From: Candidatus Electrothrix scaldis
GTDB taxonomy: Bacteria; Desulfobacterota; Desulfobulbia; Desulfobulbales; Desulfobulbaceae
Assembly: GCA_033584155.1 (NCBI GenBank)
Contig: CP138355.1
Coordinates: 1,937,501 to 2,001,500, forward strand
Length of the DNA stretch: 64,000 nt
Direction of reading: 5' to 3'
The notes under the pieces were generated by a model. That model was given only the letters and a program-made list of their open reading frames with translations. It was not told the origin of the DNA and did no database searches. This document shows, one piece after another, positions 2 to 50,295 of the stretch. Position 1 is the first letter of the stretch. Every line of letters begins with the position of its first letter. Position numbers and translations under genes: made by a program.

Positions 2-727
2 AATATTGATGATCTGGTAGAAACAGCAGATAAGCTCCTCGCTGCTGGGGTCAAGGATATGGTCATCGATACCGGTGCCCGGACCATGCGCGGCGCCTTT
101 GAGGATAATGTTGTGGCTCGTCGCTCTGCGGTGAAGGAGAAATTCAAACCGCTTGGCTTTCCTACCATCACCTTTCCCTGCGAGATGTGTGATGACCTGA
201 TGATGGAGGCCATGATAGGCTCTGTCCTGATGGCCAAGTACACCGGGATTACGGTCTTCTCTGACATTCAGGGGGATATACTCTTCCCGCTCCTGCTGGA
301 GCAGCTGAACATCTTCACTGACCCGCAGCGTCCGATGGTTGTTGCTGAGGATATTTATCCGATCACCGGCCCGGATGAGAATTCACCGGTACTGATTACC
401 TGTAACTTCTCGCTCACCTACTTTATTGTTTCCGGTGAGATCGAAGGCTCCAAGGTGCCCAGTTGGCTGCTGATCAAGGATACCGAAGGTCTTTCCGTGC
501 TCACAGCTTGGGCTGCCGGTAAATTCGGTGCCGATCTGATCGCCATGTTTGTTAATAAATCTGGCATTTTGGATAAAGTCAAGCATCGGGAACTGATCAT
601 TCCGGGCTACTTGGCAACCATCAAGGGTGAGTTGGAAGAAGAGCTGCCTGACTGGACCATCACCATCGGGCCTCGCGAAGCTGGACATCTGCCTGCATTC
701 CTCAAGGAGTGGAAACCGGCAGCGTAG
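2..727 (+). CDS. acsC: Acetyl-CoA decarbonylase/synthase corrinoid Fe-S protein large subunit (3' part)
   Basis: The reading frame is already open at the left edge, so the N-terminus lies outside the window. The visible 241 residues are the C-terminal TIM-barrel and cobamide-facing part of the corrinoid iron-sulfur protein large subunit, which carries the methyl group to acetyl-CoA synthase in the Wood-Ljungdahl pathway in the cytoplasm. I recognise the family from conserved stretches such as ITCNFSLTYF, WLLIKDTEGLSV and LTAWAAGKFGAD. The N-terminal four-cysteine cluster motif expected for the family is not in the window. The next core genes on the same strand, hdrA and mvhD, supply electrons to this pathway in relatives. 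They are separated from acsC here by a toxin-antitoxin pair, which probably came in later. Confidence 0.9.
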   Translation, partial: NIDDLVETADKLLAAGVKDMVIDTGARTMRGAFEDNVVARRSAVKEKFKPLGFPTITFPCEMCDDLMMEAMIGSVLMAKYTGITVFSDIQGDILFPLLLEQLNIFTDPQRPMVVAEDIYPITGPDENSPVLITCNFSLTYFIVSGEIEGSKVPSWLLIKDTEGLSVLTAWAAGKFGADLIAMFVNKSGILDKVKHRELIIPGYLATIKGELEEELPDWTITIGPREAGHLPAFLKEWKPAA

Positions 728-1045: not shown

Positions 1046-1528
1046 ATGAGCAAAGTCTATATTGAAACCTCTATAATTTCTTATTTGACAGCACGACCAT
1101 CCAGTAATCTCATTGCCGCTGCATGGCAAAAAGAAACGATTGATTGGTGGGATTCTGAAAAACCGCGATTTAAGCTATATATTTCAGAGGTTGTGATTGA
1201 AGAGGCTGGCAGGGGGAACCTAGATGCAGCATCAAGGAGACTTTCTGCACTTGATGGCCTTGAGATCCTTAAAATAAATAAAGAGATAGTCGCGTTATCC
1301 AAGATCCTGATTCAGGATGGCGGAATCCCGAAAAAGGCGCTGGATGACGCATTACATGTTGCGATAGCTTCCGTTCATGCAGTTGAATTTTTACTCACAT
1401 GGAATTGTAGACACATAAACAACGCGGAAATGAAGCCGAAAATAAGAAAAATTATAGAAGCGTATGGATTTCAGAGTCCTGAAATTGCTACTCCAATCGA
1501 ATTGATGGGGAGGAGAGATGATGATTGA
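1046..1528 (+). CDS. PIN-domain ribonuclease toxin (VapC-like)
   Basis: A 160-residue PIN-domain protein. The N-terminal acidic motif is VYIETSIISYL, where E/T replaces the usual D-T/S, as in the DUF of PIN proteins that start IETSV. The second acidic patch is in KKALDDALHVAIASVH, and the last conserved segment is LLTWNCRHINN. Proteins of this type cleave RNA, and a partner antitoxin neutralises them. The coding region overlaps the next small gene by 11 bases, which fits translational coupling within a toxin-antitoxin module. The toxin-first order is the reverse of classical vapBC but is common for this PIN subgroup. The pair sits between acsC and hdrA and so looks like an insertion into a Wood-Ljungdahl locus. 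Confidence 0.8.
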   Translation: MSKVYIETSIISYLTARPSSNLIAAAWQKETIDWWDSEKPRFKLYISEVVIEEAGRGNLDAASRRLSALDGLEILKINKEIVALSKILIQDGGIPKKALDDALHVAIASVHAVEFLLTWNCRHINNAEMKPKIRKIIEAYGFQSPEIATPIELMGRRDDD

Positions 1529-1697
1529 CGAAATACTTCAAGAATTAAGGGCTGTAAAAGATAAAATTGCTAAAGAGTATAGCTATAGTCTTGATGATTT
1601 AGCTGAATATTATTCGCAAAAACAAATGAATAATCCTGAAAAATTCTATCAGGGGAAGAAAAATATAAAAACCGAACAGGTTGCTCGATCTGAATAA
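1518..1697 (+). CDS. Small antitoxin partner of the PIN toxin
   Basis: A 59-codon gene that starts with two adjacent ATG codons at 1518 and 1521, preceded by AGGAG inside the end of the PIN gene. The product begins MMIDEILQELRAVKDKIAKE and continues YSYSLDDLAEYYSQKQ. This is typical of small partners found directly downstream of PIN toxins: an amphipathic helix and a short charged tail. The 11-base overlap with the toxin is the main evidence that it is a real gene. No DNA-binding fold can be named from the sequence alone. Confidence 0.7.
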   Translation: MMIDEILQELRAVKDKIAKEYSYSLDDLAEYYSQKQMNNPEKFYQGKKNIKTEQVARSE

Positions 1698-1744: not shown

Positions 1745-1906
1745 TTCAACTTACTTGAGTTTGTAGCGTCCGCCCGTCAAACGCCTGAAGGATTTGTGAT
1801 TGAACTTATTCGTGAGCACTTTGATTATTATGACAGTCTTGACAGCGAGGCACCTGATTTTACCGCATTAGAGACTGACAGAAAATATACTTTAACCAAT
1901 CAATAA
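1745..1906 (+). pseudogene. Remnant of a small acidic ORF
   Basis: A 53-codon open stretch without a plausible start codon. It follows an in-frame TAA and ends 16 bases before hdrA. Its end reads LIREHFDYYDSLDSEAPDF. The composition is protein-like, but the 5' part is missing, so I read it as the tail of a decayed small gene, possibly another toxin-antitoxin component. Function unknown. Confidence 0.3.
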
Positions 1907-1921
1907 ACACTGGAGATTGCA

Positions 1922-4900
1922 ATGGGAAAAGGAATGGAACACAGGGCCGGATCAGTAATGGTCGTGGGCGGAGGTATCGCCGGGATACAGACCGCCCTTG
2001 ACCTGACTGAACTTGGTTATTACGTCTACCTGCTGGAAAAAGCGCCGGTTGTGGGCGGGGTTATGGCCCAGCTCGATAAGACTTTTCCGACCAATGACTG
2101 CTCTCTCTGAATACTCGCGCCTAAGCTGGTAGAGGCCGGTCGGTCTCCAAACATAGAGATGATCACCAATGCAGATCTTCTGGCATTGGACGGAAAACCG
2201 GGTGATTTTACTGTCAAGGTACGTAAACGCCCACGTTATATTGATGCGGACAAGTGTACTGCCTGCGGGCTCTGTACCCAATATTGTCCCAAGCACCTTT
2301 CTGATGCATATAATGAAGGATTGTCGCTGACTCGTCCTATTCATATTGATTATGCCCAGGCTGTGCCTGCGACCTATTATATTGATCCGTCAGCCTGTAT
2401 GTCTGTGCAGCATGATACCTGTCAGATCTGCGTGCCGGTCTGCCAGAGTCATGCCATTGACTTTAGTCAGCAACCTGAAGAGGTTGATATCAAGGTTGGG
2501 GCAATGGTGCTGTCGCCAGGCTTTGGCCGGATTGATGATGCCACCTTGGAAAAATATTCCTACGGTCAACATCCTGATGTGCTTACAGCGGTAGAATTTG
2601 AGCGCATGACCAATGCTTCTGGTCCCTTCCTCGGTGAGGTGAAATGCTTCTCTGATGGGCGCCATCCCAAGTCATTGGCCTTTATTCAGTGTGTGGGTTC
2701 CAGGGATCTGGGGTGTGATAATGGCTATTGCTCTTCAGTTTGCTGTATGTATGCCATCAAGGAAGCAATGGTGGCCAAGGAGCATGACCCGGAAGTGGAT
2801 ATCACCGTCTATTATATGGATATCCGCACCCAGGGCAAGGATTTTGATAAGGCCAGGGAACGGGCCGAGGCTATGGGCGTGAAGTTTGTCCGGGCCAAGG
2901 TTGCCGGAGTGACTCCTTGGGAGAATAGCCTACGCTTGACCTATTCCACTTTGGATGGCAAGCATGAGTTTAAGCCTCATGATATGGTGGTGCTTTCTGT
3001 TGGCCTGGAAGCTCCCAAGGATGCTCAGGGTATTGCCGACATGACGGGCATTGAGCTCAATCAGTATGATTTTGCCAAAACAGATACCTTTAGCCCCCTG
3101 AATACCAGCGTGGAAGGCGTGGTTGTTGCTGGTGCCTTCCAAGGCCCCAAGGATATCCCAGAGTCTGTTACGCAGGCCTCGGCAACAGCTGGTATCGTGT
3201 CTGGAATGTTAGAAAAACAGCGCGGACTGGGCATTGTCCATAAGTCCTACCCGGACGAGAAAGCGATGGATGAGGAAGTCCGCATCGGGGTTTTTGTCTG
3301 TCATTGCGGTATCAATATCGCTTCGGTGGTGGATGTCCATAAGGTGGAGGACTCAGTTGAGGGCATGGAAGGGGTTGTCTACCATACTGATTCCCTCTAC
3401 TCCTGTTCTGCGGATGCAGTCCAGACCCTTAAAGATAGGATTATTGAGCATAATCTGAATCGGGTGGTTATTGCGGCCTGTTCTCCGCGAACCCATGAGC
3501 CGCTTTTTCAGGAGACCCTGCGGGATGCAGGCCTGAATCGTTGCCTGATTGAGATGGTCAATATCCGTGACCAATGTTCCTGGGTGCATGCTGGCGAGCC
3601 GGAAGCAGCTACTGATAAGTCGCAGGATCTGTTGCGCATGGCAGTTGCTAAGGCCAGAGGTATGAAACCTCTGCCGGAACAGACTGTGCCGGTTACCCCT
3701 AAGGCCTTGATCATCGGCGCGGGTATTGCCGGTATGACCGTGGCCTTGAGTCTGGCAGAGCAGGGCTTTGACTCTGTGCTGGTGGAAAAAGGAGAACGGC
3801 TGGGAGGCAGCTTGGGGCTGTTGAACCATACTCTGGATGCCCACGAGACCGCCTCGCATCTGCAAAAACTGGTTGCTGAGGTCGAGGCCAACGAGCATGT
3901 TGACGTGCTGACCAAGGCCGAGCTCAAGGATTTCTCCGGCTTTGTCGGTAACTTCTCCTCTGTGGTCGCTGAGGAAGGTGGTGCTGAGCACACGGTGGAT
4001 CACGGGGTTGTGGTCCTGGCAACAGGTGGGCATGAGCATCGTCCTGATGGCTATCTGCTGGAGGAGAACGATAAGGTGGTCACCCAGACCGAGCTGGAGC
4101 AGCAACTGGCTGCGGACGGTAAGGCACCGGAATCTATTATCATGGTCCAGTGTGCCGGTTCACGCGGTGATGATCTCAAGTATTGCTCCAAGGTCTGCTG
4201 TAATCATGCAGTTAAGAATGCGCTCAAGATCAAGGAACTGAATCCTGCCAGTCAGGTGATCGTCCTGTATCGGGATATGCGGACCTATGGTTATGCCGAG
4301 GATGCCTATCGTGAGGCGCGACTTAAGGGCGTGATCTTCATTCCTTATGAGTTGGCTCAGAAACCGAAGATTTCTGTTAAAGGCAAAGGTAAGAAGCTCA
4401 CAGTGAGCTTCTTTGATGCTCTGTTGCAGGAAGATGTGGAGATGAACCCGGATATGGTGGCCCTGTCCGTGGGTATTGCCCCGGATGGTACCGAAGATCT
4501 GAGCAAGCTGCTCAAGGCACCACTCACCGATGATCGCTTTTTCCTGGAGGCTCATGTGAAGTTGCGGCCAGTGGAACTGCCGGTCTCCGGGGTCTATGTC
4601 TGTGGCCTGGCCCACGCACCAAAACCTGTGGATGAGACCATTACCCAAGCCCAGGCAGCTGCGGCCAAGGCGGCTATTCCCCTGGTGAAAGGCAAGGTAA
4701 GCATTGATCCTATTGTCTCGGTAGTTGAGCAGGAGAAATGTATTGGGTGTGGTATCTGTGCCAGCCTTTGTCCCTTTGGCGCTATTGAGATGATCAAGGT
4801 AGATAAGAAGCGCAAGGCCCAGACCATTGCCGCCTCCTGTAAGGCCTGTGGTATCTGTTCCAGCCATTGTCCAACCTTTGCCATCTCTATGGGCGGGTTC

Positions 4901-4972
4901 ACCAATGAGCAGATCATGGATCAGATTGCCGCCTTTGGTAATATACAGGCGGATGAACCGGTTGAGGCGTGA
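1922..4972 (+). CDS. hdrA: HdrA-like flavin/iron-sulfur electron-bifurcation subunit, selenoprotein (Sec63)
   Basis: Read through the in-frame TGA at 2108-2110, this is one protein of 1016 residues. The N-terminal dinucleotide fold is [17 protein letters not shown]. The TGA falls in [18 protein letters not shown], where HdrA relatives have Cys (CS-x-C), so the codon is most simply selenocysteine 63. Ferredoxin-type clusters follow at [11 protein letters not shown], and two more lie near the C-terminus ([11 protein letters not shown] and [11 protein letters not shown]). A second FAD-binding fold ([17 protein letters not shown]) starts around residue 595, so the protein is the long, duplicated HdrA form found in sulfate reducers. 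It is cytoplasmic and passes electrons between ferredoxin, a disulfide or another donor, and partner subunits such as MvhD, encoded just downstream. An ORF caller would split it at 2110 and restart at 2159. Confidence 0.92.
2119..2136 (+). promoter_or_regulatory. Candidate SECIS hairpin in hdrA
   Basis: It starts 8 bases after the TGA. GCCT (2119-2122) can pair with AGGC (2133-2136) around a ten-base loop containing GCTGGTAG. The GGT lies about 18 bases past the TGA, where bacterial SECIS elements place the G/U that binds SelB. The stem is short and imperfect, so this is supportive rather than decisive. Confidence 0.5.
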
Positions 4973-4992
4973 TTCCTGTAACCTGAAACACA

Positions 4993-5058
4993 CTGTAGGG
5001 GCAGACCCCTGTGTCTGCCCTGATTGGATTGGGCGAACACGGGGATTCGCCCCTACAG
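4993..5058. repeat. GTAGGGGC palindromic repeat between hdrA and mvhD
   Basis: A 66-base palindromic unit with ends CTGTAGGGGC and GCCCCTACAG, and inner half-repeats CAGACCCCTGTGTCTG and GGGCGAACACGGGGATTCGCCC. Related units occur at 23811-23875, 23962-23991 and inside the PKS gene at 26500-26525. Here it would form a strong hairpin in a hdrA-mvhD transcript. The lack of a T-run argues against a simple terminator. Confidence 0.8.
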
Positions 5059-5095
5059 CCTGATATGCAATAAACATCAATTATGAGGTGTTTTG

Positions 5096-5695
5096 ATGAG
5101 CAATGAGTTCAGTCCCAAGATTTTGGGTTTTTTATGTAACTGGTGCTGCTACGCAGCAGCGGACGCAGCCGGGGTTTCCCGGTTTCAGTACCCACCTAAC
5201 CTGCGCACCATTCGGGTGATGTGTACCGGGCGTGTCGATCCGGCATTTATCCTGCGCGGTTTTATCGAGGGCGCGGACGGTATCTTCACCGGTGGCTGAC
5301 AGCATGGCGAATGTCATTACCAGGTAGGTAATTACGATGCAATGGGTGTGGATGCGCTGGTCAGAAAGGTTTTGGAAGATGTGGGTATCCGCAAAGAACG
5401 ATATGATTTGCAATGGGCTTCAGCTGCTGAGGCTCCGCGCTTTGTGAAGTTGATCACTGATTTCACCGAACAGATGCGTGAACTTGGTCCGCTGGGTGAG
5501 GCTGAGGGAATGTCCAAGGAAGAAATCAAGGATCGCTTGCAGAAGGCTCTGGATGTGGTCTCTGACCAGAAGGTCAGGGTCAGCTTTGGTAATGCTGCTA
5601 AGGCGGTGCGCAAGGATGCGATCTGGACACCGGAGCATATCGACGAGGTGGTCACAAGCAAGATGGCGAAAACCTTGGAGAAGGCAATGGCCTAA
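5096..5695 (+). CDS. mvhD: MvhD-type hydrogenase/HdrA iron-sulfur subunit, selenoprotein (Sec68)
   Basis: A 199-residue protein when the TGA at 5297-5299 is read as selenocysteine 68. The start is ATG 5096, preceded by GAGGTG at good spacing. The N-terminus PKILGFLCNWCCYAAADAAG and MCTGRVDPAFILRGF are typical MvhD, the [2Fe-2S] protein that links HdrA to a hydrogenase or formate dehydrogenase. The TGA sits in DGIFTGG-U-QHGECHYQVGN, where relatives have GG-C-x-x-x-x-C-H-Y. A Sec at exactly this site is established for some methanogen homologues. The second half (YDAMGVDALVRK onward) continues in the same frame to TAA, which supports readthrough. Without readthrough the gene would appear as two fragments. 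Confidence 0.92.
5316..5332 (+). promoter_or_regulatory. Candidate SECIS hairpin in mvhD
   Basis: ATTACC and GGTAAT pair perfectly around the loop AGGTA, starting 17 bases after the in-frame TGA at 5297-5299. The distance and the G-G-U loop fit the bacterial SECIS pattern well, and this candidate is better formed than the one in hdrA. Confidence 0.65.
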
Positions 5696-5763
5696 TAATT
5701 GCCTGATTGTTGTGCCTGCTCCTCTCTGTACAGCACAAAGCAGGCATTGACAAGAATATACAA

Positions 5764-5798
5764 ACGGCACTGTCCCTTGGGATGGTGCCGTTTTTTTT
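5764..5798 (+). terminator. Rho-independent terminator after mvhD
   Basis: The stem CGGCAC...GTGCCG with an internal GTCCC/GGGAT-like extension is followed by eight T. It closes the hdrA-mvhD unit. It closely resembles the terminator at 18541-18576, including the flanking ACAA and the GGTGCCG arm, so the two look like copies of one module. A second hairpin (TGCCTGCT/AGCAGGCA) lies just upstream at about 5713-5747. Confidence 0.85.
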
Positions 5799-5863
5799 GA
5801 CATCCGCCCTGAAAAGACCTATTATAAGTACTGTTAGAAGTGCTTTAAATCAATCGTGGGGGA

Positions 5864-6118
5864 ATGGATATGGCGGAGCGCATTTTAGCTGGCAGAATAG
5901 CCAGTATTTCTGAACTGAAGAAAAATCCGATGGGGGTTCTTGCCCAGGGAGAAGGCGATCCAGTTGCGATTCTGAATCGGAATAAACCGGCTTTTTACTG
6001 TGTTCCGGCGCAGGCATACGAAGAACTGCTTAACCGGCTGGAAGATATGGAACTGAATGCCATTGCTGATACCCGTAAAGGTCAGGAGCGAATCAAGGTG
6101 AAACTGGATGAGCTATGA
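5864..6118 (+). CDS. Phd/YefM- or RelB/StbD-type antitoxin
   Basis: An 84-residue antitoxin, or 82 residues if ATG 5870 (MAERILAGRIAS) is the start. The N-terminal segment RIASISELKKNPMGVL and the middle PVAILNRNKPAFYCVPAQAYEEL are typical of the DNA-binding Phd/StbD fold that represses its own operon. The C-terminal acidic-basic helix would wrap the toxin. The toxin start at 6108 overlaps its last codons, the usual arrangement. The toxin itself is damaged. Confidence 0.88.
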   Translation: MDMAERILAGRIASISELKKNPMGVLAQGEGDPVAILNRNKPAFYCVPAQAYEELLNRLEDMELNAIADTRKGQERIKVKLDEL

Positions 6119-6378
6119 GCTGGAGTTTCTGTCTGAAGCCTTCGGATGGTTCCGTAAAAAAGCAGTTCAAGAAAAAGCTGGCAGAACGTCTCCAGAATCC
6201 CTTTGTTCCGGCCTCCAAGCTCTCGGGCAGTGAAACTCGGTATAAAATCAAGTTGCGGTCTGTCGGTTACCGCTTGGTTTACGAAGTGATTGACTCTGAG
6301 TTGGTTGTTGTGGTTATTGCTGTGGGCAAACGGGAGAACAGTATGGTGTATAAAAAAGCTGCTGGTCGCCGGAGATAA
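6108..6378 (+). pseudogene. RelE/StbE-type toxin, frameshifted
   Basis: The natural start is ATG 6108 (MSYELEFLSEAFGWFRKKAV), which overlaps the antitoxin end. The conserved body lies in another frame from about 6160 to 6378: FKKKLAERLQNPF, ASKLSGSETRYKIKLRS, GYRLVYEV and AVGKREN. In intact relatives a few residues and a second copy of the GCAGTTCAAG-like stretch lie between these parts. I infer that a short deletion between direct repeats shifted the frame near 6160. An ATG at 6115 would make an 87-residue protein whose first part is in the wrong frame. The catalytic C-terminal basic residues remain, but the first helix is lost, so the toxin is probably inactive. Confidence 0.75.
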
Positions 6379-12294: not shown

Positions 12295-13968
12295 CCTAAA
12301 TCCTGCAATTAGTTGAAAGGGTATCGTAAAAATAGTATAATCCTCAATATGTTAAAGGTAAAATTACTACAGAAGAGGGTCACTATTTTTATGAAGTCTA
12401 AACAGAATAAACGATCTGCCCGAGTCTCGCCCAAAAAAATACAAATTAATAAAGGAGCAAAAGGGGTTACAGCACAGGCAGGCTTGATTCCTGCCGTAAA
12501 GTTCCTGCAAAAACATAATGTTGGCCAGCTTATCCAGGAAACTTTAGAACATCAACGCGGAGCCACCGCCACTTATGATGCAGTTGATATAATATTTCTC
12601 CCTTTGATAGCTATTATCGGCGGAGCTCGTTCTATCAGCAATATTGCAACAGTCTGGGCAGATAGCGTACTTTGCCGGATAGCAGGATGGCGGTTAATCC
12701 CGGACGAAACAACCTTTGGCCGCCTTTTTCGAACATTCAGCTATCGTCATATCAATAACCTGGAAGTTCTTAATCATCGGTTGCGTGCTCGCATGTGGCG
12801 TAAGGGATTGCGATCCGGGAAAAGTAAAGTCGGTGCAGCCCACTGTCTGGTTGTTGATGTGGATTCCACAGAAAAGACGGTATACGGTTCTCAGCAAGGA
12901 GCGGCCAAAGGGTTTAATCCACATAAACGCGGTGCAAAATCGTATCATCCTCTGCTTGCATTTTGCGCTGAAAGCAAAGAGATATTGCAAGGGTGGCTTC
13001 GATGCGGCAATGCCTATACAAGTAATGGTATTGTCGAGTTTACCAAGCAACTTCTGGCACACCTTCCCAATGGAACCCGGATTTTGTTCAGGGGCGACAG
13101 CGGTTTTTTTGTTGGTGCCCTGCTTGATCTTTTGGATCAGTATGGTCATAGTTACCTGATCAAGGTTAAGCTCAAGGGGCTGGTCACCCTTCTGTCCAAA
13201 CAATCCTGGGAGCCGGTCCCCGGGCAGGCCGGTTGGGAACAATGTATCTTTTTTCATAAATGTACGACCTGGTCTTCGACCCGACTCTTTGTTGCGGTCC
13301 GCAGAGAGAAACCGGCTGACCCGGCAAAACCAGCGACCCTGTTTGAGATGAAGGAGTTCGATTACTTCTGTTATGTGGTCAGTGAGATTGCTGATCCATG
13401 GCAGGTCCACAAACGATACGGCCAACGAGCAACTTGTGAAACCTGGATTGAGGAAGCAAAAAACCAGACTGCGTTGGTACATATCAAGACAGAAGATTTC
13501 TGGGCAAATAGTGTGTTGTTTCAAACTGCTATTCTGGCATACAACACGATACGATGGATGGCTTTATTGAGCGGTAATGCTGTATTACGTCGCTGGGAGC
13601 CAGGTACAATTCGTACATTTCTCGTTCGGGTGGCTGGGAAGTATACTACTGGTGGACGGCAGCAAAAGCTATTTGTTCCCGAACGAATGCTGTATTCCAC
13701 TCAGTGGGATGACTGGGTGGCGGTGGGGCTGTACTGACCAGCACTACTACCTCTTTTTTTGAAATATTTTTTTCCATCAACAGGATTAGTGCGTCTTGTG
13801 GGGCAAAATATTCTACTTGATCAGCCTTAAAGAGGCATCTGCTTATCTGGAAACAGCACTTTTCGGTGTTTTTTACTATCAACTGATAACTATTTTCAGA
13901 ATTTTTGGTTTTCTACAACACCAAATGGTTAGTCATTTGAGCCAAAAAGATCAATTGCAGGATTTAGG
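12295..13968 (+). mobile_element. IS1380-family element IS-C, copy 1
   Basis: 1674 bp with ends CCTAAATCC and GGATTTAGG, extended by CTGCAAT on the left. The target duplication is TATAT (12290-12294 and 13969-13973). An apparently identical second copy sits at 48622-50295 with duplication TGAGA, so the element was recently active. Confidence 0.92.
12391..13737 (+). CDS. IS1380-family transposase (IS-C copy 1)
   Basis: 448 residues from ATG 12391 (MKSKQNKRSARVSPKK). Longer starts upstream have no good ribosome site. Catalytic blocks of the IS1380 group are visible: CLVVDVDSTEKTVYGSQQG (first Asp), ILFRGDSGFF (second Asp) and RATCETWIEEAKNQ (Glu), with the N-terminal LPLIAIIGGARSISNI and IPDETTFGRLFR. 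The reading frame is intact and the translation is identical to the copy at 48718-50064, so the enzyme is probably functional. Confidence 0.92.
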   Translation: MKSKQNKRSARVSPKKIQINKGAKGVTAQAGLIPAVKFLQKHNVGQLIQETLEHQRGATATYDAVDIIFLPLIAIIGGARSISNIATVWADSVLCRIAGWRLIPDETTFGRLFRTFSYRHINNLEVLNHRLRARMWRKGLRSGKSKVGAAHCLVVDVDSTEKTVYGSQQGAAKGFNPHKRGAKSYHPLLAFCAESKEILQGWLRCGNAYTSNGIVEFTKQLLAHLPNGTRILFRGDSGFFVGALLDLLDQYGHSYLIKVKLKGLVTLLSKQSWEPVPGQAGWEQCIFFHKCTTWSSTRLFVAVRREKPADPAKPATLFEMKEFDYFCYVVSEIADPWQVHKRYGQRATCETWIEEAKNQTALVHIKTEDFWANSVLFQTAILAYNTIRWMALLSGNAVLRRWEPGTIRTFLVRVAGKYTTGGRQQKLFVPERMLYSTQWDDWVAVGLY

Positions 13969-23810: not shown

Positions 23811-23875
23811 CCGTAGGGGCGAACCTCTGTGTTCGCCCTGTTATATCGGGCAGGCACGTAGGTCCGCCCCTACAG
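23811..23875. repeat. GTAGGGGC palindromic repeat
   Basis: Starts CCGTAGGGGCGAAC and ends CCGCCCCTACAG. Inner halves GGGCGAACCTCTGTGTTCGCCC form a strong hairpin. It lies between the LolA-like gene and the outer-membrane protein gene and belongs to the family seen at 4993-5058. Confidence 0.8.
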
Positions 23876-23907: not shown

Positions 23908-25170
23908 ATGTCAGGCCTTGTAAGGGGGATTCCCTATGTTCACCCTCGCTATCCTCGAATAAGGGGCAGGCACAGGGGGCTGCCCCTACAGATACTAGCG
24001 GTATTGCCGATCCTGCTGCTGGCGCTGTTGCCCATAACTGCTTCAGGGCTGGAGCTTGCAGGCAATGTCACCCTTGAAGGGCGTTATTTTCCGGAAGGAG
24101 CACAATACCCTGGACAGGAGGAACAAAACGCCTCTATCCTCATACAACCTGAGCTCTATCATGCCGTTGGTGATGGCTCCAGCCTGCTCCTGCAACCCTT
24201 TCTCCGCCTGGACAGCAGTGATGATCAACGGAGCCATTGGGACATCCGAGAGGCTATTTTTCGCTATCCTGCTGAAGATTGGGATGTGCAGGTAGGGATC
24301 AGTAAGGTCTTCTGGGGGGCAACCGAGTTTGTTCATCTGGTTGATATTATAAACCAGACAGACTCTGTTGAGGAATTCAGTGGTGAGGAAAAACTTGGGC
24401 AACCCATGCTCCATCTTACGGTTCCACAGGAACAGGGCATGATTGAGGCCTTTCTCTTGCCTTGGTTTCGGGAGAGAACTTTTCCTGGAGTAGGGGGTCG
24501 TCTGCGTAGTGAACCGATTATTGACACAGATCATCCCCTGTACGAGAGTGCTGCGGAGCAGTCTCATCTTGATGTTGCCCTGCGCTACAGTGACACCTTT
24601 GGTAATGCCGATGTGGGCTTGTATCATTTCATAGGAACCTCCCGTGATCCTGAACTGATTTTGGGTGGTGATATGACAAGCCCTGTTTTGCTTCCCTACT
24701 ATACGCAGATCGGCCAGACTGGTCTGGATATCCAGATGGTTGCCGGAGATTGGCTGCTGAAAGGAGAAGCCCTGTATAGGACAGGACAGGGGAGGAGTTT
24801 TGCCGCCGCCGTCTGCGGCTTTGAGTATACTTTGTATGGTATTGCCGGGACCGGGGCCGATCTCGGGCTTATCGGAGAGTACGTCTTTGATGATCGTGCT
24901 GATACCTCCTTGACGGTCTTTACCAATGATGTTATCGGAGGCTTTCGTCTGGCCCTCAATGATGCCGCCGGAACTGAAATTCTAGCAGGCCTGATGAAGG
25001 ATATAGATTTGTCCACTTCTCTCTTCTCCTTAGAAGCGGAGCGCCGTTTGAGCGAGCATTTTAAACTGCATCTGGAGGCCCTGTTTATCGTGGATGCAGC
25101 GGAGCAGGATGCGGTTTTTTCTCTTGAAAAGGACAGCCATCTCACCCTTGAGCTACAATATTTTTTTTGA
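23908..25170 (+). CDS. Outer-membrane beta-barrel protein of the exporter operon
   Basis: 420 residues from ATG 23908. The first 26 residues are basic and translated partly from a GTAGGGGC-type repeat; then comes a signal peptide core (LQILAVLPILLLALLPITASG). The mature protein alternates beta strands and turns, ends in an aromatic residue (LELQYFF), and has patches such as NASILIQPELYHAVGDGSSL, WDIREAIFRYPAEDWDVQVG and KVFWGATEFVHLVDIINQ. The position after an HAE3 exporter and a LolA-like gene is typical for such barrel proteins. The specific substrate is unknown. Because the repeat forms the start region, the original start may have been changed, and a shorter start near the hydrophobic core cannot be excluded. 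Confidence 0.72.
   Translation: MSGLVRGIPYVHPRYPRIRGRHRGLPLQILAVLPILLLALLPITASGLELAGNVTLEGRYFPEGAQYPGQEEQNASILIQPELYHAVGDGSSLLLQPFLRLDSSDDQRSHWDIREAIFRYPAEDWDVQVGISKVFWGATEFVHLVDIINQTDSVEEFSGEEKLGQPMLHLTVPQEQGMIEAFLLPWFRERTFPGVGGRLRSEPIIDTDHPLYESAAEQSHLDVALRYSDTFGNADVGLYHFIGTSRDPELILGGDMTSPVLLPYYTQIGQTGLDIQMVAGDWLLKGEALYRTGQGRSFAAAVCGFEYTLYGIAGTGADLGLIGEYVFDDRADTSLTVFTNDVIGGFRLALNDAAGTEILAGLMKDIDLSTSLFSLEAERRLSEHFKLHLEALFIVDAAEQDAVFSLEKDSHLTLELQYFF
23962..23991. repeat. Half-size GTAGGGGC repeat inside the signal-peptide region
   Basis: AGGGGCAGGCACAGG and its mirror GGGCTGCCCCTACAG form a hairpin. It encodes the basic region (GRHRGLPLQ) just before the hydrophobic core of the outer-membrane protein's signal peptide. 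Confidence 0.7.
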
Positions 25171-48621: not shown

Positions 48622-50295
48622 CCTAAATCCTGCAATTAGTTGAAAGGGTATCGTAAAAATAGTATAATCCTCAATATGTTAAAGGTAAAATTACTACAGA
48701 AGAGGGTCACTATTTTTATGAAGTCTAAACAGAATAAACGATCTGCCCGAGTCTCGCCCAAAAAAATACAAATTAATAAAGGAGCAAAAGGGGTTACAGC
48801 ACAGGCAGGCTTGATTCCTGCCGTAAAGTTCCTGCAAAAACATAATGTTGGCCAGCTTATCCAGGAAACTTTAGAACATCAACGCGGAGCCACCGCCACT
48901 TATGATGCAGTTGATATAATATTTCTCCCTTTGATAGCTATTATCGGCGGAGCTCGTTCTATCAGCAATATTGCAACAGTCTGGGCAGATAGCGTACTTT
49001 GCCGGATAGCAGGATGGCGGTTAATCCCGGACGAAACAACCTTTGGCCGCCTTTTTCGAACATTCAGCTATCGTCATATCAATAACCTGGAAGTTCTTAA
49101 TCATCGGTTGCGTGCTCGCATGTGGCGTAAGGGATTGCGATCCGGGAAAAGTAAAGTCGGTGCAGCCCACTGTCTGGTTGTTGATGTGGATTCCACAGAA
49201 AAGACGGTATACGGTTCTCAGCAAGGAGCGGCCAAAGGGTTTAATCCACATAAACGCGGTGCAAAATCGTATCATCCTCTGCTTGCATTTTGCGCTGAAA
49301 GCAAAGAGATATTGCAAGGGTGGCTTCGATGCGGCAATGCCTATACAAGTAATGGTATTGTCGAGTTTACCAAGCAACTTCTGGCACACCTTCCCAATGG
49401 AACCCGGATTTTGTTCAGGGGCGACAGCGGTTTTTTTGTTGGTGCCCTGCTTGATCTTTTGGATCAGTATGGTCATAGTTACCTGATCAAGGTTAAGCTC
49501 AAGGGGCTGGTCACCCTTCTGTCCAAACAATCCTGGGAGCCGGTCCCCGGGCAGGCCGGTTGGGAACAATGTATCTTTTTTCATAAATGTACGACCTGGT
49601 CTTCGACCCGACTCTTTGTTGCGGTCCGCAGAGAGAAACCGGCTGACCCGGCAAAACCAGCGACCCTGTTTGAGATGAAGGAGTTCGATTACTTCTGTTA
49701 TGTGGTCAGTGAGATTGCTGATCCATGGCAGGTCCACAAACGATACGGCCAACGAGCAACTTGTGAAACCTGGATTGAGGAAGCAAAAAACCAGACTGCG
49801 TTGGTACATATCAAGACAGAAGATTTCTGGGCAAATAGTGTGTTGTTTCAAACTGCTATTCTGGCATACAACACGATACGATGGATGGCTTTATTGAGCG
49901 GTAATGCTGTATTACGTCGCTGGGAGCCAGGTACAATTCGTACATTTCTCGTTCGGGTGGCTGGGAAGTATACTACTGGTGGACGGCAGCAAAAGCTATT
50001 TGTTCCCGAACGAATGCTGTATTCCACTCAGTGGGATGACTGGGTGGCGGTGGGGCTGTACTGACCAGCACTACTACCTCTTTTTTTGAAATATTTTTTT
50101 CCATCAACAGGATTAGTGCGTCTTGTGGGGCAAAATATTCTACTTGATCAGCCTTAAAGAGGCATCTGCTTATCTGGAAACAGCACTTTTCGGTGTTTTT
50201 TACTATCAACTGATAACTATTTTCAGAATTTTTGGTTTTCTACAACACCAAATGGTTAGTCATTTGAGCCAAAAAGATCAATTGCAGGATTTAGG
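48622..50295 (+). mobile_element. IS1380-family element IS-C, copy 2
   Basis: 1674 bp, ends CCTAAATCC and GGATTTAGG, target duplication TGAGA at 48617-48621 and 50296-50300. The DNA appears identical to copy 1 at 12295-13968. It interrupts hamB after about codon 401. Confidence 0.95.
48718..50064 (+). CDS. IS1380-family transposase (IS-C copy 2)
   Basis: 448 residues from ATG 48718, identical in translation to the copy at 12391-13737. The three catalytic blocks (DVDSTEKTVYG, RGDSGFFVGA and CETWIEEAKNQ) are intact. It points against the hamB reading direction. Identity of two copies 36 kb apart means very recent transposition within this chromosome. Confidence 0.93.
   Translation: MKSKQNKRSARVSPKKIQINKGAKGVTAQAGLIPAVKFLQKHNVGQLIQETLEHQRGATATYDAVDIIFLPLIAIIGGARSISNIATVWADSVLCRIAGWRLIPDETTFGRLFRTFSYRHINNLEVLNHRLRARMWRKGLRSGKSKVGAAHCLVVDVDSTEKTVYGSQQGAAKGFNPHKRGAKSYHPLLAFCAESKEILQGWLRCGNAYTSNGIVEFTKQLLAHLPNGTRILFRGDSGFFVGALLDLLDQYGHSYLIKVKLKGLVTLLSKQSWEPVPGQAGWEQCIFFHKCTTWSSTRLFVAVRREKPADPAKPATLFEMKEFDYFCYVVSEIADPWQVHKRYGQRATCETWIEEAKNQTALVHIKTEDFWANSVLFQTAILAYNTIRWMALLSGNAVLRRWEPGTIRTFLVRVAGKYTTGGRQQKLFVPERMLYSTQWDDWVAVGLY

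Follow-up and report, generated by a model that had tools for sequence, protein, structure and literature searches.

Selenocysteine (Sec) forms of HdrA and of FrhD/MvhD, often encoded in one cluster, were reported in 2006 from the deltaproteobacteria Syntrophobacter fumaroxidans, Syntrophus aciditrophicus, Desulfotalea psychrophila and others (Zhang 2006, PMC1794560), and the pairing of a Sec HdrA with a Sec MvhD, in print since then, is itself not new. Selenoproteins HdrA1/HdrA2 and MvhD1, 2, 3 and 5 were described from Desulfobacterium autotrophicum HRM2 in 2009 (PMC2702500); Sec forms of both families also occur in Asgard archaea (PMC11227280), and both were reviewed in 2026 (PMC13188914). 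The locus described below lies in a window of 64,000 nucleotides, positions 1937501–2001500 of the 5.09-megabase (Mb) single-contig genome of a Candidatus Electrothrix cable bacterium (order Desulfobulbales), to which, among named organisms, Candidatus Electrothrix marina (95% in the best segment) and Candidatus Electrothrix gigas (92%) are related. It carries hdrA and mvhD, which, judging from sequence, are almost certainly two adjacent bacterial selenoprotein genes. Going by titles, searches of the literature turned up no paper on cable bacteria and selenocysteine, or on cable bacteria and Wood-Ljungdahl terms, and Sec HdrA/MvhD in this group seems not to have been stated there before.

The two genes lie side by side and each is split by one in-frame TGA, at 2108–2110 and 5297–5299, as the first-pass annotation of the window had proposed. 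Its further observations, that both frames stay open past the TGA (HdrA to 4972, MvhD to 5695) and that a candidate selenocysteine insertion sequence (SECIS; bSECIS for the bacterial type) hairpin follows each, also hold. The features are:

1922..4972, + strand: hdrA, 1016 amino acids with Sec63; frame reading, Pfam/NCBIfam profiles and structure match
2108..2110, + strand: putative Sec-UGA codon 63 of HdrA, in a CxxU motif (NDCSLU); aligned to PDB 5odc chain A
2132..2147, + strand: candidate bSECIS hairpin of hdrA, GAGGCC-GGTC-GGTCTC, 6 base pairs, 4-nucleotide loop with G first, 27 nucleotides from UGA to loop
5096..5695, + strand: mvhD, FlpD family (PF02662), 199 amino acids with Sec68
5297..5299, + strand: putative Sec-UGA codon 68 of MvhD (GGUQHGECHY); aligned to PDB 5odc chain D
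5316..5332, + strand: candidate bSECIS hairpin of mvhD, ATTACC-AGGTA-GGTAAT, 6 base pairs, 5-nucleotide loop with G second, 22 nucleotides from UGA to loop

HdrA starts with ATG at 1922 and stops with TGA at 4970–4972. Its internal TGA is set in NDCSL-U-ILAPK and is followed by 953 further open codons. The Pfam search types the product as a flavin/iron-sulfur protein with two flavin adenine dinucleotide (FAD)/nicotinamide adenine dinucleotide (NAD)-binding regions of thioredoxin-reductase-like type and a C-terminal 2x[4Fe-4S] ferredoxin domain. It matches the HdrA of 5odc with an E-value of 4e-182, and residue 197 of chain A, printed as cysteine (Cys), aligns with Sec63. In the same alignment E227 and K280 match E356 and K409, residues close to the flavin of bifurcating HdrA that are named in PMC12054007 and taken here to follow 5odc numbering. 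The ATG of MvhD is at 5096 and its TAA stop at 5693–5695; the TGA is set in FTGG-U-QHGECHY. It matches PF02662 (FlpD/MvhD) at 164.2 bits against a Pfam cut-off of 22.3 and the MvhD of 5odc with an E-value of 5.3e-46; residue 67 of chain D, also printed as Cys, aligns with Sec68.

The first-pass annotation also held that standard gene calling misses both proteins. The table 11 list of open reading frames (ORFs) of at least 80 amino acids indeed gives just the 3' parts, 2159..4972 and 5342..5695, so that ordinary ORF calling shortens both HdrA and MvhD. These truncated calls fit a different explanation, in which the TGAs are genuine stops or arose in sequencing and the genes are broken pseudogenes or yield short upstream peptides. 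The same explanation can point to one Electrothrix draft copy of hdrA (L063, G004:C71), which looks broken further on, near residue 600; both Sec codons are retained there. However, homologues make it very improbable. Orthologues and paralogues were gathered from 57 whole genomes and 80 named loci, the latter being the best 80 of at least 580 from a similarity scan; the sample was picked by similarity and is not random. From loci L024–L213, minus L128 and L130–L132, 147 hdrA-mvhD pairs were drawn, and 134 were left as non-redundant once near-copies, matches that share their first 300 residues, were dropped. The pair filter required PT/PA before the site, which removed rows misaligned through an internal repeat of HdrA; L064 and L066 are HdrA fragments that do not extend to codon 63, and the non-Cys codons read there belong to this repeat.

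The two sites, which had been placed at conserved Cys positions, read TGA or Cys in both genes in 134/134 pairs: TGA/TGA in 91, Cys/Cys in 32, TGA/Cys in eight, Cys/TGA in three, and nothing else. Within the clade of the window (branch support 100%, FastTree) all 61 non-redundant pairs, from many assemblies, are TGA/TGA. The TGAs are therefore neither chance nor sequencing error. The frames are open on both sides, the downstream protein is conserved and the genome encodes Sec machinery, all of which argue against stops or pseudogenes and for selenoproteins.

A class-wide HdrA search covered 257 genomes, with three candidates scored per genome and the matches listed counted by hand. Among the matches listed, at least 135 have at least 66% identity and span codon 63, and all of these have at least one in-frame TGA; three HdrA fragments listed that do not extend to codon 63 have none. 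Six newly found matches were read to the codon, and TGA stands at 63 in all six. HdrA seemed to have two TGAs in G242, G244 and G245, three genomes from a single genus, but only one TGA falls within the aligned span. A separate draft HdrA (L232, G124:C34) has a second in-frame TGA at position 270, a Cys position equivalent in the alignment to residue 399 of 5odc chain A; this may reflect either an error in the sequence or another Sec.

Both candidate hairpins fit the bSECIS geometry given in PMC13188914, namely an apical loop of 3–9 nucleotides, an upper stem of 4–16 base pairs, a G as first or second loop nucleotide and 16–37 nucleotides from UGA to loop. Their codons are exceptionally well conserved. 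In hdrA, codons +8 to +12 (GAG GCC GGT CGG TCT) are invariant in all 61 Sec genes, and the 16-nucleotide hairpin is letter-identical in 61/61 clade genes; in mvhD, codons +6, +7, +8, +10 and +11 (CAT, TAC, CAG, GGT, AAT) are likewise invariant in 61/61. Among background codons with conserved residues, none of 496 in hdrA and none of 76 in mvhD reaches at least 99% identity. The corresponding codons of 17 Cys relatives are unfixed; at positions that share the residue, the most frequent codon accounts for 47–76%. The mvhD stem pairs in 80/80 distinct sequences, taken over all Sec paralogues, with a double compensating change of A-T to T-A in two of them, and the GGTC of the hdrA hairpin is retained in 91 of 99. 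Folding energy over 48 nucleotides is unremarkable (−13.7 kcal/mol, z −1.10, for hdrA; −9.6 kcal/mol, z −0.74, for mvhD) and was rejected as too weak to be the sole evidence for a SECIS. Codon conservation, not folding energy, is the strong evidence that marks out both candidate hairpins.

The genome search for selA, selB, selC and selD that the first-pass annotation called for found all four. The tRNA-Sec scores 75.3 bits (cut-off 47), and ARAGORN agrees, with anticodon tca. SelB (370.7 bits, positions 1–580 of 581), SelA (627.9 bits) and SelD (343.8 bits, its gene also having an in-frame TGA) are all above their cut-offs. The selD gene (L018, G000:C1:3826318-3827244) lies ~5 kilobases from selB. 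Among 14 named control genomes, tRNA-Sec passes the cut-off in five, SelB in two, SelA in one and SelD in two, and at E 0.001 the counts are 14, 14, four and 14. Machinery genes were therefore counted only when over the cut-off. A codon-score scan of the window for more genes with in-frame TGA recovered the MvhD site alone; hdrA itself fell under the threshold, and the scan is insensitive.

Several observations weigh against a selenoprotein reading of the two genes. Among 30 further HdrA matches that have no MvhD partner (duplicates kept), 19 have TGA and 10 Cys at the Sec site, and one, a distant paralogue of 39% identity (L114, G029:C44:2133-5177), has TGG. The sense codon other than Cys that the first-pass annotation would have counted against its claim is thus absent from the 134 pairs and present as tryptophan (Trp) in this paralogue. 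The hdrA stem, held in one fixed register, pairs in 90% of cells over 85 distinct sequences (31–67% in slid controls), and some paralogues need another register. Of 200 shuffles, 28 for hdrA and 43 for mvhD fold equally well. A search of Rfam over 1900–5800 gave two matches below E 1, neither of which is a SECIS or exceeds its gathering score. The best NCBIfam model for HdrA, HdrA2 (NF040770), scores 968.6 bits against a curated cut-off of 1100; the end of this model is matched by MvhD, a separate gene here, at 161.9 bits.

The Trp codon of L114 would also fit decoding of the UGA as Trp, Cys or glycine, by near-cognate reading or a change of code. This too is highly unlikely: hdrA itself terminates at UGA, tRNA-Sec and SelB are present in the genome, the 61 UGA genes have invariant hairpin codons and the 17 Cys relatives compared do not, and the Cys of homologues is the usual exchange partner of Sec. 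The machinery, the TGA/Cys pattern of homologues and the hairpins with invariant codons that fit the bSECIS rules together make both genes almost certainly selenoprotein genes. SelB with Sec-tRNA would bind the hairpin just 3' of each internal UGA and selenocysteine would be placed there, where homologues carry Cys, while the UGA at the end of hdrA would still be read as a stop. This indicates that, in cable bacteria, two or more subunits of a central electron-transfer enzyme are made with Sec machinery.

The first-pass annotation further supposed that two contacting subunits both use Sec at their redox site. The selenoprotein pair is supported; the contact and the placement at the redox site come from solved homologues, on which HdrA and MvhD would touch with Sec at that site. 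In homologues the [2Fe-2S] cluster of MvhD feeds the bifurcating flavin of HdrA (PMC6019823, PMC12350162), and by analogy Sec63 and Sec68 probably lie in this relay from the MvhD [2Fe-2S] cluster to the HdrA flavin. The states of the two sites agree in 123 of the 134 pairs before ancestry is considered. However, on the HdrA tree (FastTree, long branches flagged) the fewest state changes are seven for HdrA and nine for MvhD, leaving six or seven independent pairs with a sign-test median p of 0.5. Coupled Sec/Cys switching of the two sites is thus not shown once ancestry is allowed for, though it may occur.

Two further features lie upstream of the pair:

2..727, + strand: 3' end of acsC, carbon monoxide dehydrogenase/acetyl-CoA synthase (CODH/ACS) gamma subunit, the last Wood-Ljungdahl gene of the upstream run
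1046..1697, + strand: PIN-domain ORF (1046..1528) and a small following ORF, between acsC and hdrA; profile search

The upstream run, mostly outside the window, comprises folD, cooS, a metF-acsD fusion, acsAB and acsC. In L125:12234-14912 (G000:C1, upstream of the window), and also in L129, L130 and L131, methylenetetrahydrofolate reductase and the CODH/ACS delta subunit share a single ORF of ~870–900 amino acids; in L125 the reductase occupies residues 8–300 and the delta subunit begins at ~590, with a long linker rich in Ala, Lys and Glu between them. The fusion is one ORF in 4/4 genomes read; metF and acsD looked separate in relatives only through an alignment artefact.

The PIN-domain ORF lies in the acsC-hdrA gap, where most of the relatives' loci examined have a gltD/fdhA fusion gene. 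This gltD/formate dehydrogenase fusion ends no more than 600 nucleotides before hdrA in 38 of 47 clade loci, counting those with at least 700 nucleotides of upstream sequence. In L031 fdhA ends 914 nucleotides before hdrA, beyond the 600-nucleotide rule, and the remaining eight loci are without gltD/fdhA: five Electrothrix loci plus L053, L155 and L159, in which acsC adjoins hdrA. The active-site codon of the fusion, in 33 readable loci outside Electrothrix (duplicates kept), is TGA in 32 and TGC in one (L140). The fusion with its in-frame TGA stands at L131:7465-11688 and also in L132, L134, L138 and others, giving a run of three selenoprotein genes, fdhA-hdrA-mvhD. A TGA-containing formate dehydrogenase fusion lies at 3.03 Mb of the Electrothrix genome; Cys-codon hdrA, mvhD and gltD/fdhA stand together at 3.56 Mb (L225, G000:C1:3555000-3574000), with a caspase-domain ORF nearby (L225:2724-4127). 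Since this genome encodes both Sec and Cys forms of HdrA, MvhD and FdhA, a selenium-switch test is feasible.

The Wood-Ljungdahl neighbours and the fdhA fusion beside hdrA in clade loci suggest a formate- or NAD(P)H-linked Hdr module for reduction of methylene-tetrahydrofolate (methylene-THF), by analogy with homologues. HdrA-MvhD would link oxidation of formate or NAD(P)H to ferredoxin and methylene-THF, and in Sporomusa HdrA/MvhD contact MetF (PMC9430772). From gene order and homology, the chances that the pair serves the Wood-Ljungdahl pathway are about even. Two observations tell against it: a linked gltD/fdhA precedes hdrA in 0/5 Electrothrix loci, and no match to the HdrB-type CCG domain (PF02754) lies near the site of the pair at 1.94 Mb, the nine in the genome being at 2.48, 2.85–2.86, 4.75 and 4.96 Mb (hdrC was not searched for). 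The missing linked fusion and the distant HdrB-type domains favour a somewhat less probable alternative in which the genes encode selenoproteins whose electron donor or acceptor is a different one, such as a hydrogenase, and the adjacency to acsC is merely inherited. However, the orders cooS-hdrA-mvhD-metF (in the more distant relatives L172, L174, L176, L179 and L191) or acsC-hdrA-mvhD recur in distant relatives, which speaks for a Wood-Ljungdahl role. No hydrogenase family was found among the other neighbour genes scanned.

A broader proposal, tentative and rather unlikely as a whole, is that GltD/formate dehydrogenase(Sec)-HdrA(Sec)-MvhD(Sec) at the CODH/ACS end in Desulfobulbales would be a three-selenoprotein bifurcating module joining formate/NAD(P)H, ferredoxin and methylene-THF. 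Cable bacteria would then have lost the linked formate dehydrogenase and kept the pair as a core with the separate Sec enzyme at 3.03 Mb, the Cys-only set at 3.56 Mb being a possible selenium-independent stand-in.

Other sequences of the window were noted in passing. Between hdrA and mvhD, positions 4993–5058 form an imperfect palindrome with 28-nucleotide arms, 79% complementary; there are similar sites at 23862–23875 and 23978–23991, and it may be a dispersed repeat. Just downstream of mvhD (5864–6378) are ORFs for a Phd/YefM-type antitoxin and a ParE-like toxin. Two 474-amino-acid ORFs (12313–13737 and 48640–50064) share the same overlapping-ORF pattern and are probably two copies of one mobile element.

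Methanococcus maripaludis has an archaeal Sec system and archaeal SECIS. Its hdrAU-vhuD resembles the present pair in joining a Sec HdrA to a Sec VhuD, Cys isoforms being encoded at other places in the genome, but shares an operon with hydrogenase genes (PMC11097638). In HdrABC-MvhAGD of Methanothermococcus thermolithotrophicus (PDB 5odc) HdrA and MvhD are homologous to those described here. However, the 5odc HdrA is shorter (654 amino acids), and that of the window has two flavin-type domains, like the type II of PMC12054007. In the MetVF systems with HdrCBA-MvhD of Moorella thermoacetica and Sporomusa ovata, HdrA and MvhD are proposed electron partners of methylene-THF reductase, and pull-downs indicate contacts among HdrA, MvhD and MetF (PMC9430772). 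That cluster includes hdrB/hdrC, whereas the present locus has a metF-acsD fusion and yielded no HdrB-type gene nearby.

Of the bacteria named at the outset, D. autotrophicum likewise has Sec HdrA and Sec MvhD, with hdrA or hdrL followed by mvhD (except at hdrA4) and formate dehydrogenase genes in some loci; unlike the present pair, its genes are not placed beside acs genes in the available part of PMC2702500. The systems of PMC1794560 share with this locus the joint presence of both selenoprotein families, the clustering of hdrA with frhD and the replacement of Sec by Cys in homologues. However, their clusters read glpC-hdrA-frhD-frhG-frhA, with hydrogenase subunits, whereas the pair in Candidatus Electrothrix follows the genes of CODH/ACS.

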